From Winogradskyella ursingii (GTDB lineage: Bacteria > Bacteroidota > Bacteroidia > Flavobacteriales > Flavobacteriaceae): a DNA stretch of 64,000 nucleotides. A program made the position numbers and the translations under genes. Positions 58,559 to 64,000 of the stretch are shown here, piece after piece. The notes below the pieces were generated by a model, which was given only the letters and a program-made list of their open reading frames with translations, made no database searches and was not told where the DNA came from. The DNA lies in NCBI RefSeq assembly GCF_013403975.1, contig NZ_JABFDH010000006.1:62001-126000 (forward strand), given 5' to 3'. Every line of letters begins with the position of its first letter. Position 1 is the stretch's first letter.

Positions 58559-61450
58559 ATGAGAACCCTAATTGCCCTTATTATATCAGTTATTTGCATT
58601 CAGCCTTTTTTTGGTCAGAAACAATCGAACAGTGAAGTTCAAAAATTGATTCAAGAATATAAAAACGATATCCGAGGACCTTATTACCGGATCAAATGGT
58701 TTTGCGAGGATGGTAGTATAAGGGATCCAAAAGACCCTTGTCCAGATAAAGTTGAAGGAATTCAGCACGCTACATTTAAAGAAAGTGCTTTAAAACTTAG
58801 AAAAACAAACGACTTATATTTTGGGGAAATTCTTGCTGCAAATGAAATCCAACCGTTTTTGGATAGGGAAGAGAACTTTAATCGCCTAAAACAATACCAA
58901 ATTAATAAATACCTTCAAAGTATCGATAATGGTTGGGTATTGCGAAAAGGTCAATTTTACCGAGGAGCCATTCAATCTGAAGATGAAGAAGCATGGGGAA
59001 GAAATTTTTTCGAAACGATTCTAAGGGACGAAAAATTGTTGAAAGAGAATTATTATCTCATTAGGCAAGCTTTAAAAGATATTCCGCATAATGGTGATAC
59101 CAATATTGCACAGTTAGTGCGAAGCCAGTCTAAATTGATTTCTGAAAAATACGAGCCGTTTATGGATCTAAGAATTAAAATTCACGGTCAGCCAGAAGTC
59201 ACCGACATTAGTAAAGTAGAGCGTTTTTATTCTGAAAATAATTCAAAATTAAGCAGTGATCTTAAAAAGGATTTCGATGAGTTAATTTCTACCATGAAGA
59301 CTAATTACGCACCATTGGATTTTTCGGAATTGGAACAGCAAATCAACAGCCTACCTAATTCAAGCTCAGTAACTAAGCGCATGGAAGAGTTTATTAAAAC
59401 CAATAAAAATGCTTCAACCGAGATCGCTATCATAAACATTACAGAAACTCTGAATACGATCCGAGAAGGGATTTTGTCGTATGCGTCCGCAAAAGACCGA
59501 TTAACAATTTTAGACATTTCTAATGATCTCGAACACTTTCTTTTAACCAAAACTCAAGAATGGCAACCAGAAAATCTTCAGGAAAATCTGCATAAAATCA
59601 TGACTATGATTTGTGCTGCAGATGGCACAGGACTTATTGAGGGTTGGGAATATAATGCGATTGAATATCAGCTCAACGAAATTTATTCAAAGCAAGATTT
59701 GAAGGTGCAGGATTTATCCGAATTTCTGAACATTTCCCGCAGTGTGGTAGAGTGGTGTTCTGCTACGGTAAAAGCAAATTACACCGAAGTTGTAAATACA
59801 TATGCGGCTTTCGAACCATTGGCTTACGGATTTATAGACGATAAAGTGAGAAGTAGTGTGGCTTTAAGTTTAGGCGAATCCGTCAGTAATTTAGGTACCT
59901 TTTTTGCTAATGCAACAGATCTTAATAATAATGTTGTGGGTGTCGATAATACAAGCAGTTTTAGAGGGTTAAATCCTGGCTACGCCTTTGGTAAATTGGT
60001 GGTGGTAGATGGCAATCCTGACGATATAGAGGTGAACCCAAAAAACATATATATTTTTGAAAGACCACCTGCAGACCTCAAGCCTGTTGCAGGTATAATG
60101 ACCGTTTCCGAAGGTAATTTGGTCTCTCATGTTCAGCTGTTGGCTCGAAATTTAGGTATCCCAAATGCCGCTTTGTCTTATGATAATTTAAAAGAACTAA
60201 AAGACTACAATGGAGAAAATGTGTTTTACGCTGTTTCTAACAGAGGCAACATTATTTTAAAGCAAGAAGACGATATGACTTCTGTTGAAAAAGATCTTTT
60301 TAGCAAACAAGAGCGTAATAAAAATGTAATAGAGGTTCCAACAGACCAAATAAACCTAAGTAAAACTTCGGTCGTAAATATGCGTAATGTAGACGCTTCT
60401 GATTCAGGTAAGTTGTGTGGACCAAAAGCCGCAAATTTAGGGGAACTCAAAAAGATGTTTCCCGAGAACGTTGTTGAAGGATTAGTAATTCCTTTCGGGA
60501 TATTTAGAACGCACATGGACCAGCAAATGCCTAACGAATCTAAAACTTATTGGCAGTATCTAAATGACACCTTTAAAATGGCCAACACTATGAGAGAGGA
60601 AGGTACAAGCGAATCTACGGTTGAAGATTTTCAACTTTCAGCATTAGATAAATTGCATAAATCCATTATCAATATGCCATTGAAGGATGAATTTTTAACC
60701 GATTTAAAACAACAATTTGTTTCAGTCTTTGGAAAAAATATAGGTAACGCACCAGTGTTTCTTCGTAGTGATACTAATATGGAAGATTTAAAGGAGTTTA
60801 CTGGAGCAGGATTAAACTTGACGCTTTTTAACATTAAAGATGAAGATGAAATTCTTCAAGGTATCAAGCGTGTTTGGGCCTCTGCTTATACGGAGCGTAG
60901 TTTTAAATGGAGACAGAAGTATTTATCAAATCCAGAAAATGTATTTCCTTCTATTTTGATTATTCCGAGCGTTGATGTAGATTATTCTGGTGTAATGATT
61001 ACAAAAGGTATTAATTCCGGAAATGATAACGATCTTACCGTTGCTTTCAGCAGAGGAGCAGGAGGTGCAGTAGATGGGCAGTCTGCCGAAACCCGATTAA
61101 TTACAAATGAAACAGATATGGTATTAGCTCCTGCGAGACAGCCAGATTATATACGTTTGCCAGAAAGTGGCGGCACTAAAAAATACTACACATATTTTGA
61201 TGAACCGATTTTAAATCAAAAAAACATTGAAGATATTAGAGATATCGCTAGAAAAGTGAGAGCTAAAATGGGGTCGGAAAGCAGTGGTCAGGCTTTTGAT
61301 GTGGAGTTCGGATTTCAGAATGATAAATTATGGCTTTTTCAAATTAGACCATTTGTAGAAAATAAAGCAGCTAAAAGTTCAGACTATTTGGCTTCCATTG
61401 CTCCAAAAATTGATAATGATAAAGAAGTGAATCGCACAGCAAAACTATAA
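58559..61450 (+). CDS. Exported phosphohistidine-ATP-grasp protein (dikinase-like, GWD domain order)
   Basis: 963 residues with a Sec signal (about 1-19). The region 20-460 is helical and unrecognised, with a Cys pair in WFCEDGSIRDPKDPCPDK. A phosphohistidine swivel domain follows (about 470-590) with GIMTVSEGNLVSHVQLLARN and His524. A PEP-synthase-type ATP-grasp domain comes last (about 618-935): CGPKAANLGELKK, VFLRSDTNMEDLKEFTGAG, SRGAGGAVDGQSAETRLIT and LWLFQIRPF. There is no PEP/pyruvate TIM barrel. Swivel-before-ATP-grasp order is that of glucan water dikinases, not PEP synthase. Activity outside the cytosol would need ATP there, so the role is unclear. Confidence 0.82.
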   Translation: MRTLIALIISVICIQPFFGQKQSNSEVQKLIQEYKNDIRGPYYRIKWFCEDGSIRDPKDPCPDKVEGIQHATFKESALKLRKTNDLYFGEILAANEIQPFLDREENFNRLKQYQINKYLQSIDNGWVLRKGQFYRGAIQSEDEEAWGRNFFETILRDEKLLKENYYLIRQALKDIPHNGDTNIAQLVRSQSKLISEKYEPFMDLRIKIHGQPEVTDISKVERFYSENNSKLSSDLKKDFDELISTMKTNYAPLDFSELEQQINSLPNSSSVTKRMEEFIKTNKNASTEIAIINITETLNTIREGILSYASAKDRLTILDISNDLEHFLLTKTQEWQPENLQENLHKIMTMICAADGTGLIEGWEYNAIEYQLNEIYSKQDLKVQDLSEFLNISRSVVEWCSATVKANYTEVVNTYAAFEPLAYGFIDDKVRSSVALSLGESVSNLGTFFANATDLNNNVVGVDNTSSFRGLNPGYAFGKLVVVDGNPDDIEVNPKNIYIFERPPADLKPVAGIMTVSEGNLVSHVQLLARNLGIPNAALSYDNLKELKDYNGENVFYAVSNRGNIILKQEDDMTSVEKDLFSKQERNKNVIEVPTDQINLSKTSVVNMRNVDASDSGKLCGPKAANLGELKKMFPENVVEGLVIPFGIFRTHMDQQMPNESKTYWQYLNDTFKMANTMREEGTSESTVEDFQLSALDKLHKSIINMPLKDEFLTDLKQQFVSVFGKNIGNAPVFLRSDTNMEDLKEFTGAGLNLTLFNIKDEDEILQGIKRVWASAYTERSFKWRQKYLSNPENVFPSILIIPSVDVDYSGVMITKGINSGNDNDLTVAFSRGAGGAVDGQSAETRLITNETDMVLAPARQPDYIRLPESGGTKKYYTYFDEPILNQKNIEDIRDIARKVRAKMGSESSGQAFDVEFGFQNDKLWLFQIRPFVENKAAKSSDYLASIAPKIDNDKEVNRTAKL

Positions 61451-61453
61451 ATC

Positions 61454-62758
61454 ATGAAAAAGTCTATAAAAATATTAATCGTATTAGCCGTAGCCGTGTC
61501 TTTCGGTTTTACATTCTATCCTATTGACGGTTATACAAAAACGGGAATTAAACGATTGTACCAAATTCAGAAATTTCAGGAAGACAGCGTACCCTATAAA
61601 AGAATACCTGCGGGAGCTTACAAAAAAATGGAAGATATAAAACTGAATCTTACTTCCGTAAACGATAGTCTAGATGATGTTTTGGTCGAGGATAAGGAAT
61701 TCGCCAAAAGAATAAATTCTTTGTTTCCTAGTGGTAACTATTCCGCAGCGGTAATGGATATGACAAATCCAGACGATCTAAAATATGCTGCATACAGAGA
61801 AAATGCTGGTTACCAACCCGGAAGTGTAGGTAAAATAGCTGTCTTAAATGCCGTTTTTGATCAATTGGCGAAAATTTGTCCGGACTCTTGGGAGGACCGT
61901 GTTATGTATTTAAAAGATATTAAAGTATCATCCAGATATTGGGGAACTGGAGATCATCATACAGTGCCTATTTACGATATTGAGAAAGATAAATTGGTAA
62001 AAAGACAAGTTGTTGCGAGTGATGTATTCTCATTGTACGAATGGTTGGATCATATGGTGTCCGTAAGTAATAATGGTGCGGCAAGCGTTATGTATAGAGA
62101 AGCTATGCTTATGGCCGCATTTGAGGCAAATTATGTCAATCTCACCGAAGAACAAGCTGAAACATATTTCAAGGAAACACCGAGAGATTCACTTACCAAT
62201 TTGGCACATTCCGTTGTCAATGACCCTTTGCGTAAATTAGGAATTACTGAGGACGATTGGCGTTTGGGAGGTCTGTTTACCAATGGGCCAGGTAAATATG
62301 TTGGTCGCAAAGGCGGTAGTATTGGTACACCAAAAGGCTTGATGAAATTTTTGGTAAAAATGGAACAAGGAGAAGTAATTGACGAAAACTCCAGTCTAGA
62401 GATGAAGCGCTTATTATATCTTACCGATAGAAGAATTAGGTACGCAAAATCACCTCGTTTGGATAGTGCGGCAGTTTATTTTAAATCTGGAAGTTTTTAT
62501 AAATGCGACCGTAATAAAGACCCAAATTGTAAGGCTTATGCAGGTAATGTATTTAACTATATGAATTCGGTTATTATTGTTGAGCACGACGATGGTGTAA
62601 AATATATTGTCTGTTTAATGACAAATGTGTTAAACCGTAATTCAGCAGGTGCACACATGTACTTAGCCAGCAAGATTGACGATTTAATTACTATGGATAA
62701 TACTAAGCCAGAGGTTAAAGAAGTACCGTATAAAGATGAAGAAGATACTGGTAATTAA
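61454..62758 (+). CDS. Exported serine hydrolase of the beta-lactamase/PBP superfamily
   Basis: 434 residues with an N-terminal signal-anchor (about 5-24). The three catalytic motifs are S-x-x-K in GSVGKIAVL (Ser124, Lys127), SNN (Ser205-Asn207) in VSVSNNGAASV, and KSG (Lys344-Gly346) in YFKSGSFYKC. A class A beta-lactamase-type layout is likely, but substitution of the usual Glu-x-x-L-N loop is not evident. It may hydrolyse D-Ala bonds in peptidoglycan or act on esters. It starts three bases after the dikinase-like gene, so they form an operon. No direct link of the two reactions is known. Confidence 0.82.
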   Translation: MKKSIKILIVLAVAVSFGFTFYPIDGYTKTGIKRLYQIQKFQEDSVPYKRIPAGAYKKMEDIKLNLTSVNDSLDDVLVEDKEFAKRINSLFPSGNYSAAVMDMTNPDDLKYAAYRENAGYQPGSVGKIAVLNAVFDQLAKICPDSWEDRVMYLKDIKVSSRYWGTGDHHTVPIYDIEKDKLVKRQVVASDVFSLYEWLDHMVSVSNNGAASVMYREAMLMAAFEANYVNLTEEQAETYFKETPRDSLTNLAHSVVNDPLRKLGITEDDWRLGGLFTNGPGKYVGRKGGSIGTPKGLMKFLVKMEQGEVIDENSSLEMKRLLYLTDRRIRYAKSPRLDSAAVYFKSGSFYKCDRNKDPNCKAYAGNVFNYMNSVIIVEHDDGVKYIVCLMTNVLNRNSAGAHMYLASKIDDLITMDNTKPEVKEVPYKDEEDTGN

Positions 62759-64000
62759 GTATGTAGTTTATGCGTTTGTTCCTTTAATACAGCTAGTGTT
62801 TCAGTAGCAAAAGTTTTTATCTCTTTATTTTTTTGGAGTGTTTGCTGATGGACTAGCGTTGTATAAGACTGGTCTTTAAGTATACGGATAAGGTGAAGTA
62901 CTTCTAACTTAATACGTTTTCCACGTTTTTTTAATAGTGATTGTAATAATAGATGTTCTGGTAGAATTTCAATTTGAATGATTTTATCCGTATCTACATT
63001 TTTATTGTCAACATTATAATATTCAATTAAAGGCAGTATTTGTATCTTGATTTGGCTTTGTAATAAGTTATCCAAGAATTCCATAGCATTCACTTGTGCT
63101 TCTTTGACGTCACTTATCAAACCAGAATAGCTTACCTTGATATCCGCTTCATCATAAAGTAGTCCCAAAACTTGAAATACTGTCTTAAGACTCATATCCA
63201 ATTGTTCTTCGAGTACAGATATGATACTCTTTCTTGCAATTGACAGTTCTATTTCTTTATCTGAAGGCTGGTCATATCCAACCGCATTGTTTAGTGCGCG
63301 CAGAGATGCTAATGCTGTTAAGGTTTCTTTACCATATTTGCATTCGCGAATAACTTCTTTCTTAAGCCTCCTTTTGCTAATAGAAATAGATTCGTTTTTA
63401 GACTTTAATTTATTTAAGGCTCTTGCCGATTCATATCTAATGATGATGTCTTTACTCTTTAAAAAGCGTAAAAGAATCTTAACTGATTTTTGAGTTTTAA
63501 AAGAACCTATCAATGAAGGGATATGGCGCTTGGAATCGTTGGTCAATTCCTCATTTTGCTCTAATTTTATAATCGTATTTGTAATATTGCTACCGTAATT
63601 TTTCAGGGCTTTTTTTGCAGCTTTGCGATAAATCTTAACCGATAAAAATCCTAAAAGTGTTCTGCTGTAATCCTCGCTAGAAGTAATACCTGCAGCTTTA
63701 ATAGCGTGTTTTACTATATATGGATTTCTGTTTTGAAGGTTGACCGAAATATAGGAATAGTGTTTTTCAGTTTTAGAATATGCAATAGTCAGTAATAATT
63801 TGGCAATATCCTCTTGTCTACTCACATCATCGTTGAGAAGTAGCTCATTCAATCTATCATTGATGCGTTTTTCGAGATGAAAACCTCTAGCTAAACTATA
63901 ATTATCCATAACTTCCTGTGATAAACACAATAAGGCAGCGCTTGAAATCATCGGATCTTCATGGTCAAGATATTCAGTAAAAAAATCATTATGCGATATA
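62755..64000 (-). CDS. HEAT-repeat protein, N-terminus beyond window
   Basis: The frame ends at the TAA complementary to 62755-62757 and stays open past 64000, giving at least 415 residues; the ATG at 63951 is not necessarily the true start. The visible part is tandem helical repeats (for example LQNRNPYIVKHAIKAAG and SKDIIIRYESARALNKL), an alpha-solenoid of HEAT type. In Bacteroidota such C-terminal solenoids are sometimes fused to an N-terminal ATP/ADP-translocase-like or MFS membrane domain; that part would lie outside the window. The stop overlaps that of the convergent serine hydrolase gene. Confidence 0.75.
   Translation of the reverse strand, partial: ISHNDFFTEYLDHEDPMISSAALLCLSQEVMDNYSLARGFHLEKRINDRLNELLLNDDVSRQEDIAKLLLTIAYSKTEKHYSYISVNLQNRNPYIVKHAIKAAGITSSEDYSRTLLGFLSVKIYRKAAKKALKNYGSNITNTIIKLEQNEELTNDSKRHIPSLIGSFKTQKSVKILLRFLKSKDIIIRYESARALNKLKSKNESISISKRRLKKEVIRECKYGKETLTALASLRALNNAVGYDQPSDKEIELSIARKSIISVLEEQLDMSLKTVFQVLGLLYDEADIKVSYSGLISDVKEAQVNAMEFLDNLLQSQIKIQILPLIEYYNVDNKNVDTDKIIQIEILPEHLLLQSLLKKRGKRIKLEVLHLIRILKDQSYTTLVHQQTLQKNKEIKTFATETLAVLKEQTHKLHT

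Follow-up and report, generated by a model that had tools for sequence, protein, structure and literature searches.

Near the end of the window, the whole stretch of 64,000 nucleotides of Winogradskyella ursingii analysed here (contig NZ_JABFDH010000006.1, positions 62,001 to 126,000), lies the gene of a predicted exported dikinase, which we call DK, in the company of two predicted exported serine hydrolases with a beta-lactamase fold (BL-A and BL-B) and of a membrane protein combining a TLC/NTT transporter domain with HEAT repeats (NTT-HEAT). DK, a protein of 963 residues recognized from the list of open reading frames (ORFs), a Pfam PPDK_N match, an AlphaFold2 model and PDB matches, is encoded on the plus strand (58559..61450). 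Three bases past its stop codon begins the ORF of BL-A (434 residues, 61454..62758, plus strand), assigned by Pfam, model and PDB matches. On the minus strand, an open-ended ORF (62755..63999) with HEAT repeats in Pfam encodes the C-terminus of NTT-HEAT; the full gene, coding for 949 residues (L073:6756-9605; labels in L, G and C denote our loci, genomes and contigs), has its N-terminal transporter domain past the window end, and BL-B, the fourth gene, likewise lies outside the window (L073:9616-10620). That DK, BL-A and BL-B form a co-inherited module is strongly supported, and that NTT-HEAT is part of it is well supported.

Clustering of the flanks of 21 wide loci recovered DK and BL-A in all 21, an NTT-HEAT protein of ~920-950 residues also in 21/21, and a BL-B protein of ~300-340 residues in 20/21, the locus without BL-B (L030) being on a contig that ends soon after. 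DK and BL-A face NTT-HEAT and BL-B, which run on the opposite strand, in 18 of these 21 loci (including L030 minus BL-B); the order is rearranged in L032, L033 and L036, with all four genes retained. Other neighbours (a major facilitator superfamily (MFS) protein, DinB, acyl-CoA carboxylase and more) are common to subsets of the wide loci only and were set aside as local synteny. Considering all full-length DK loci, a BL-A homologue is found 3' of DK on the same strand in 38/39 (34/35 distinct loci), and the lone locus without an adjoining BL-A (L045, genome G235) has its partner elsewhere on the same contig. Indeed, the genes of G235 are scattered over two contigs and all present (DK at C1:547689, BL-A at C1:309471, NTT-HEAT at C1:397896 and BL-B at C2:106580). 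The first-pass annotation of this DNA had paired DK with an exported serine hydrolase three bases away, and had named the loss of this two-gene neighbourhood as grounds against its reading; the pair proved to be conserved in those 34 of 35 distinct loci, but the annotation had missed NTT-HEAT and BL-B, which are inherited with it.

Twenty-two loci come from a scan of genome contigs that reaches close relatives only. Among 60 relatives, full-length DK occurs in six (G000, G002, G006, G008, G015 and G032), and these six alone also carry BL-A, BL-B and NTT-HEAT; seven others hold only partial matches to the PPDK_N region. Across 395 Bacteroidota genomes, 69 have any DK match and 13 a full-length DK (at least 729 bits, the next match scoring 51), and these 13 genomes, with no others, carry BL-A and BL-B (E<=1e-20). 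Within the 395, a close NTT-HEAT (E<=1e-200) was found in 11 genomes, each of them one of the 13, and stands beside DK in 10/11; more broadly, a TLC-type gene (E<=1e-10) is carried by 41 genomes, namely 13/13 with DK versus 28/382 without. None of the four proteins has a PADLOC match at E<=0.01, and anti-phage defence was set aside; DK and BL-A have no PHROGs match at E<=0.01. In the open-licence literature, we found no described system matching the four-gene set and no paper on an exported dikinase.

Within the genus, the module occupies a single chromosomal site. In 22 same-genus genomes (the six with the module and 16 of 31 without it), the MFS gene preceding DK and the acyl-CoA carboxylase gene following BL-B are on one contig in 22/22, separated by 8.5-11.2 kb where the module is present (six genomes) and by 0.3-5.6 kb in 15/16 genomes without it. 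The remaining genome, G036, has a distance of 9.4 kb filled with other DNA (G036:C43:5497-14884), and in G018 there is no ORF of at least 60 residues between the two genes. The version of G002 and G032 is 57% identical to that of the window and groups with Psychroserpens (100/99 support), so that a single site within the genus is shared by two lineages, through transfer or through an old divergence followed by loss, both of which are possible. In G032, BL-B is split in two ORFs (L134:414-644 and 659-1381) and the NTT-HEAT match there has one stop, possibly reflecting decay or an assembly error.

DK itself has a Pfam PPDK_N domain at residues 619-941 (E 2.4e-30, 106 bits against a cut-off of 27), and its AlphaFold2 model (mean predicted local distance difference test score 80.6, predicted template modelling score 0.76) shows an N-terminal region made up mostly of helices, then a small alpha/beta swivel surrounding His524 and, last, a PPDK-type ATP-grasp. 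The N-terminal region (residues 21-455, 58619..59923), delimited by the secondary structure of the model, contains the invariant Cys49 and Cys61; it has no Pfam family above cut-off in 13/13 members scanned, and is probably the substrate side of the enzyme. The swivel phosphohistidine domain spans residues 465-570 (59951..60268), with the His524 codon CAT at 60128-60130; because the Pfam PEP-utilizers match (residues 507-535) is sub-threshold (13.3 bits against 23.1), this assignment is based on motif, position and model. The ATP-grasp (residues 601-934, 60359..61360) superposes on rifampin phosphotransferase (RPH) with bound AMPPNP (5hv1) with a Z of 30.8 over 307 residues (root-mean-square deviation 3.2), on phosphoenolpyruvate (PEP) synthase 2ols with a Z of 28.4 and, over residues 601-937, on HpeI 9goj with a Z of 26.0. 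Foldseek and VIA structure matches cover mainly residues 509-946; the structure alignments, A1 and A2, hold 20 and 21 relatives, respectively, plus the window protein. By alignment, K623, R736, T755 and E916 correspond to RPH Lys22, Arg117, Thr136 and Glu297. According to the accessible part of the RPH study, the first three hold the phosphates of ATP in place, Glu297 is a Mg ligand and the phosphate carrier is His825, and a Glu297Ala mutant is still active (PMC4844700). His524, K623, R736, T755, E916, Q928, R930, C49 and C61 are invariant in 35/35 distinct DK homologues (39 full-length loci minus four duplicates). With ATP-grasp, swivel histidine and ATP-phosphate residues all present in sequence and model, DK is predicted to be a member of the PPDK/PEP synthase/RPH dikinase superfamily. 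Weak Pfam hits on DK to HTH_24, Tipalpha and GCIP_C (E 0.009-0.09) fall below their cut-offs and were set aside. The genome from which the window comes has no PPDK_N match besides DK, so that the search gave neither a PEP synthase nor a PPDK of the cytosol there; the family was found in 13/14 control genomes.

The proximity of the ATP-grasp to RPH raises the question of a drug- or toxin-inactivating island, in which DK would phosphorylate an antibiotic in the periplasm, other antibiotics would be hydrolysed by the BL proteins and export would fall to the MFS-like protein. The nearest solved fold, the class A beta-lactamase fold of the partners and the patchy presence at one chromosomal site would all fit. 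We nevertheless hold such an island to be quite unlikely: the domain order of DK is permuted relative to RPH, alignment by hhalign of its N-terminal and swivel regions with RPH-like proteins covers swivel residues only and is not significant (probability 0.4%, with shallow profiles), no PLSDB plasmid match was found at E<=1e-20, and all parts are very strongly conserved in distant families, unlike a resistance cassette.

A second defining feature of DK is its predicted export. The signal peptide is assigned to residues 1-19 (58559..58615), with Gln20 at +1, from the alignment of the 35 distinct homologues: all 35 have a hydrophobic N-terminus of variable sequence (best 12-residue mean hydropathy 1.8-3.3), and the cleavage column has Gln at +1 in 33/35 and A, S or G at -1 in 32/35. 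The exceptions (L032, L036 and L045) have A-Q or S-Q within a few residues of this column; the N-termini of L037, L048 and L049 were read from stop to stop, their start codon not being fixed. Gln at +1 after a small residue fits the Q-rule for signal-peptide cleavage described in Bacteroidetes, as given in the available text of PMC5837995, and thus constitutes an export signature. A Bacteroidota-type signal peptide directing export of DK is well supported by these sequences, and the invariant Cys49 and Cys61 would suit an oxidising compartment. As no domain for sorting by the type IX secretion system (T9SS) was matched in DK by Pfam at E<=1, the periplasm appears a likelier destination than the cell surface. 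The first-pass annotation fares well here: its signal peptide is borne out, with no sign in the homologues of the missing signal or cytosolic N-terminus that it had named as refuting. Its phosphohistidine domain with His524 followed by an ATP-grasp agrees with Pfam, the model and the invariance of His524. The PEP-binding barrel it had declared absent was not found either (no PEP-utilizers_C at E<=1 in Pfam and no domain beyond the ATP-grasp), and the ATP-binding residues, whose loss it had set beforehand as a refutation, are intact in the alignment and the predicted model.

BL-A and BL-B are predicted exported serine enzymes of the SxxK/SxN/K[ST]G type. BL-A matches Pfam Beta-lactamase2 (E 7.2e-10), its motifs S124xxK127, S205xN207 and K344SG346 are invariant in 22/22 sequences, and a YPIDGY stretch is conserved directly past its hydrophobic N-terminus. 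Its model (pLDDT 82.3) resembles many class A beta-lactamases and PBP-A, effectively tied at Z 22.7-23.9. BL-B proteins are Beta-lactamase2 members in 3/3 scanned, with motifs S123xxK, S159xN and K275SG invariant in 14/14. No PDB sequence match was found for the BL-A profile at E<=0.1 or for BL-B at E<=0.001. This fold usually handles D-Ala-D-Ala peptides or beta-lactams, and it is because of the fold that a D-Ala-type peptide or similar substrate may be proposed, the sole lead to peptidoglycan.

The fourth partner brings a candidate transporter. HEAT repeats are present in 3/3 NTT-HEAT proteins scanned and TLC is above cut-off in 2/3 (46.4 and 49.0 bits against 21). Searched against the PDB, the transporter-domain profile recovers AtNTT1 9j3j (E 4.9e-16) and 9j3n (ADP,ATP carrier protein 1; 6.1e-14) and nothing else at E<=1. 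A block with K339xS, E348, K363 and D367 is common to NTT-HEAT and AtNTT1. Because three charged residues of AtNTT1 are absent, as detailed below, NTT-HEAT is best described from its sequence as a TLC relative and candidate nucleotide transporter rather than as an established ATP/ADP exchanger. NTT-HEAT fusions have been described in free-living bacteria, their functions being called unknown in the part of the paper available (PMC5381601). Distant NTT-HEAT genes with no DK nearby (L106, L115 and L116) adjoin a lipoprotein-like protein of ~570-616 residues, which is itself next to an Omp85-family protein in L106 and L116, possibly another NTT-HEAT context; this survey of neighbourhoods leaves out L108-L112 entirely and L107 and L113 in part.

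A transporter of this type could also work inwards. In a scavenging pathway, DK would use extracellular nucleotides on an incoming substrate, and NTT-HEAT would import the nucleotide or the product. Such a pathway finds parallels in the parasite NTTs that import nucleotides (PMC5381601) and in the related dikinase HpeHI, which shares the serial order and scavenges small phenols (PMC12167813), as far as the accessible portions of both sources go. It is, though, unlikely in our view, since no SusCD or TonB receptor recurs among the conserved neighbours in the flank clusters of the wide loci and two peptidase-like partners are left unexplained.

DK is not the only exported protein with its ATP-grasp last. 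The same terminal placement, after a signal-peptide-like start, is seen in two more Bacteroidota families: one of ~830 residues (L007, 535-3042, and L052, 604-3096, both with a T9SS tail) and one of ~625 residues (L050, L055 and L058). The T9SS-tailed dikinases may reach the cell surface. These two families have an N-terminal region in common (E 2.4e-14); what they share with DK is limited to the swivel (E 1e-4). In a PPDK_N tree of 49 rows (24 of the family's 39 loci plus 25 PPDK_N loci from outside it; unrooted, any root being arbitrary), ATP-grasp-last and ATP-grasp-first rows separate at 100/99. The ~625-residue family adjoins a membrane protein of ~185 residues (contexts L123-L125), with DUF4956 in the two scanned, and further exported proteins (L010 and L011) likewise have a swivel histidine followed by an ATP-grasp.

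We consider it about evenly balanced whether the four genes constitute a co-inherited envelope phosphotransfer module whose transporter supplies nucleotide. DK would be exported by Sec and cleaved before Gln20. By analogy with the RPH/PPDK mechanism and given the intact residues, its C-terminal ATP-grasp would bind Mg-ATP and pass a phosphate to His524, with release of AMP and Pi; the swivel would next swing over to the helical N-terminal part, for phosphorylation of a hydroxyl on an envelope substrate. NTT-HEAT, in the inner membrane, may move some nucleotide, in either direction, between cytosol and periplasm; such movement would answer how an ATP enzyme works in the periplasm. BL-A and BL-B would act on this substrate too, preparing or processing it; peptidoglycan, or material attached to it, is the most plausible candidate. 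The full proposal, that a dedicated NTT-HEAT feeds nucleotide to an exported dikinase phosphorylating peptidoglycan or a bound envelope polymer on which both hydrolases act, is tentative, and we would put it somewhat short of an even chance.

Several observations weigh against these proposals. The periplasmic use of ATP is reasoned from the parts and faces real contrary evidence, and the choice of an envelope glycan or peptidoglycan as substrate, made already by the first-pass annotation, is a guess from the hydrolase fold alone. AtNTT1 Lys155, Glu245 and Lys527 align with Y, A/S and L in NTT-HEAT (the Lys155 region aligning weakly, and the numbering offset of 84 being deduced from the fit), and the distant NTT-HEAT proteins compared likewise have no counterparts of them; changes of these residues in AtNTT1 impair nucleotide binding or exchange, according to the available text of PMC3306366. 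The third NTT-HEAT protein scanned (L033) has no TLC match at E<=1, and two DK genomes, G240 and G256, are without a close NTT-HEAT, having only other TLC types away from DK. A TLC gene was found in 0/7 genomes of the two other ATP-grasp-last families (the controls were also unmatched, but two further searches agree), so that an enzyme of this kind can be exported in the absence of a TLC gene. Finally, no more than 2 to 5 candidates were scored for each genome in the phylum-wide searches, and the genomes are related by descent.

Bacterial periplasms are generally held to lack free ATP. This expected scarcity, together with the missing NTT1 charges in the transporter, would suit a protein that retains the fold for binding or regulation and does not phosphorylate. 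We regard such a protein as improbable, with a small chance at most, as the invariance of His524 and all tested ATP residues in 35/35 homologues is hard to explain without catalysis. An apparently exported ATP enzyme inherited all-or-none with hydrolases and, in almost every case, with a relative of ATP transporters suggests an undescribed ATP-driven chemistry of the envelope, and to our knowledge no bacterial counterpart of such an envelope kinase system has been described. The envelope phosphotransfer module, if true, would give a role to the uncharacterised NTT-HEAT transporters of free-living bacteria, and envelope phosphorylation, if shown, would extend the modifications known for the bacterial wall or surface. 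An all-or-none set joining an exported ATP enzyme to an NTT-type transporter makes the questions of periplasmic ATP and of the role of these NTTs directly testable.

Comparison with known systems places each component near a familiar one. Class A beta-lactamases and PBP-A share the fold of the BL-A model; its profile gave no PDB sequence match at E<=0.1. RPH (Listeria; 5hv1 and 5fbs) has the same ATP-grasp fold and the counterparts of the ATP residues and swivel histidine; its order is ATP-grasp, drug domain, histidine, whereas DK has its N-terminal region, histidine and then ATP-grasp, and RPH is not known to be exported. PEP synthase and PPDK have the ATP-grasp fold and swivel histidine of DK, in which the ATP-grasp comes last and no PEP-binding domain was found. 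In glucan water dikinase (GWD) and phosphoglucan water dikinase, a His domain precedes a C-terminal ATP-grasp, as in DK, and the S-H-V motif at the histidine is also reminiscent of GWD. A true bacterial GWD acting on an envelope or storage glucan is nonetheless very unlikely, since the module is without a glucan gene and no starch- or carbohydrate-binding or GWD-named Pfam model matches DK at E<=1 or any of the 13/13 N-terminal members at E<=0.01. The order of DK is, as read from its sequence, GWD-like, which supports no more than a resemblance: the likeness drawn by the first-pass annotation is supported for domain order but not for kinship, the nearest solved ATP-grasp being that of RPH and the order being also that of HpeH plus HpeI. 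The NTT-HEAT proteins of PMC5381601, like that of the module, join a TLC/NTT membrane domain to C-terminal HEAT repeats in free-living bacteria; their operon partners there are cNBD proteins, and the accessible part of that paper mentions no exported dikinase or hydrolase partner. Finally, the two-part phenol dikinase of PMC12167813 consists of HpeH (substrate domain and swivel) and HpeI (ATP-grasp), two separate proteins of aromatic catabolism for which the available text reports neither export nor partner hydrolases; placed in series, they reproduce the order of DK, and HpeI (9goj) matches its residues 601-937.

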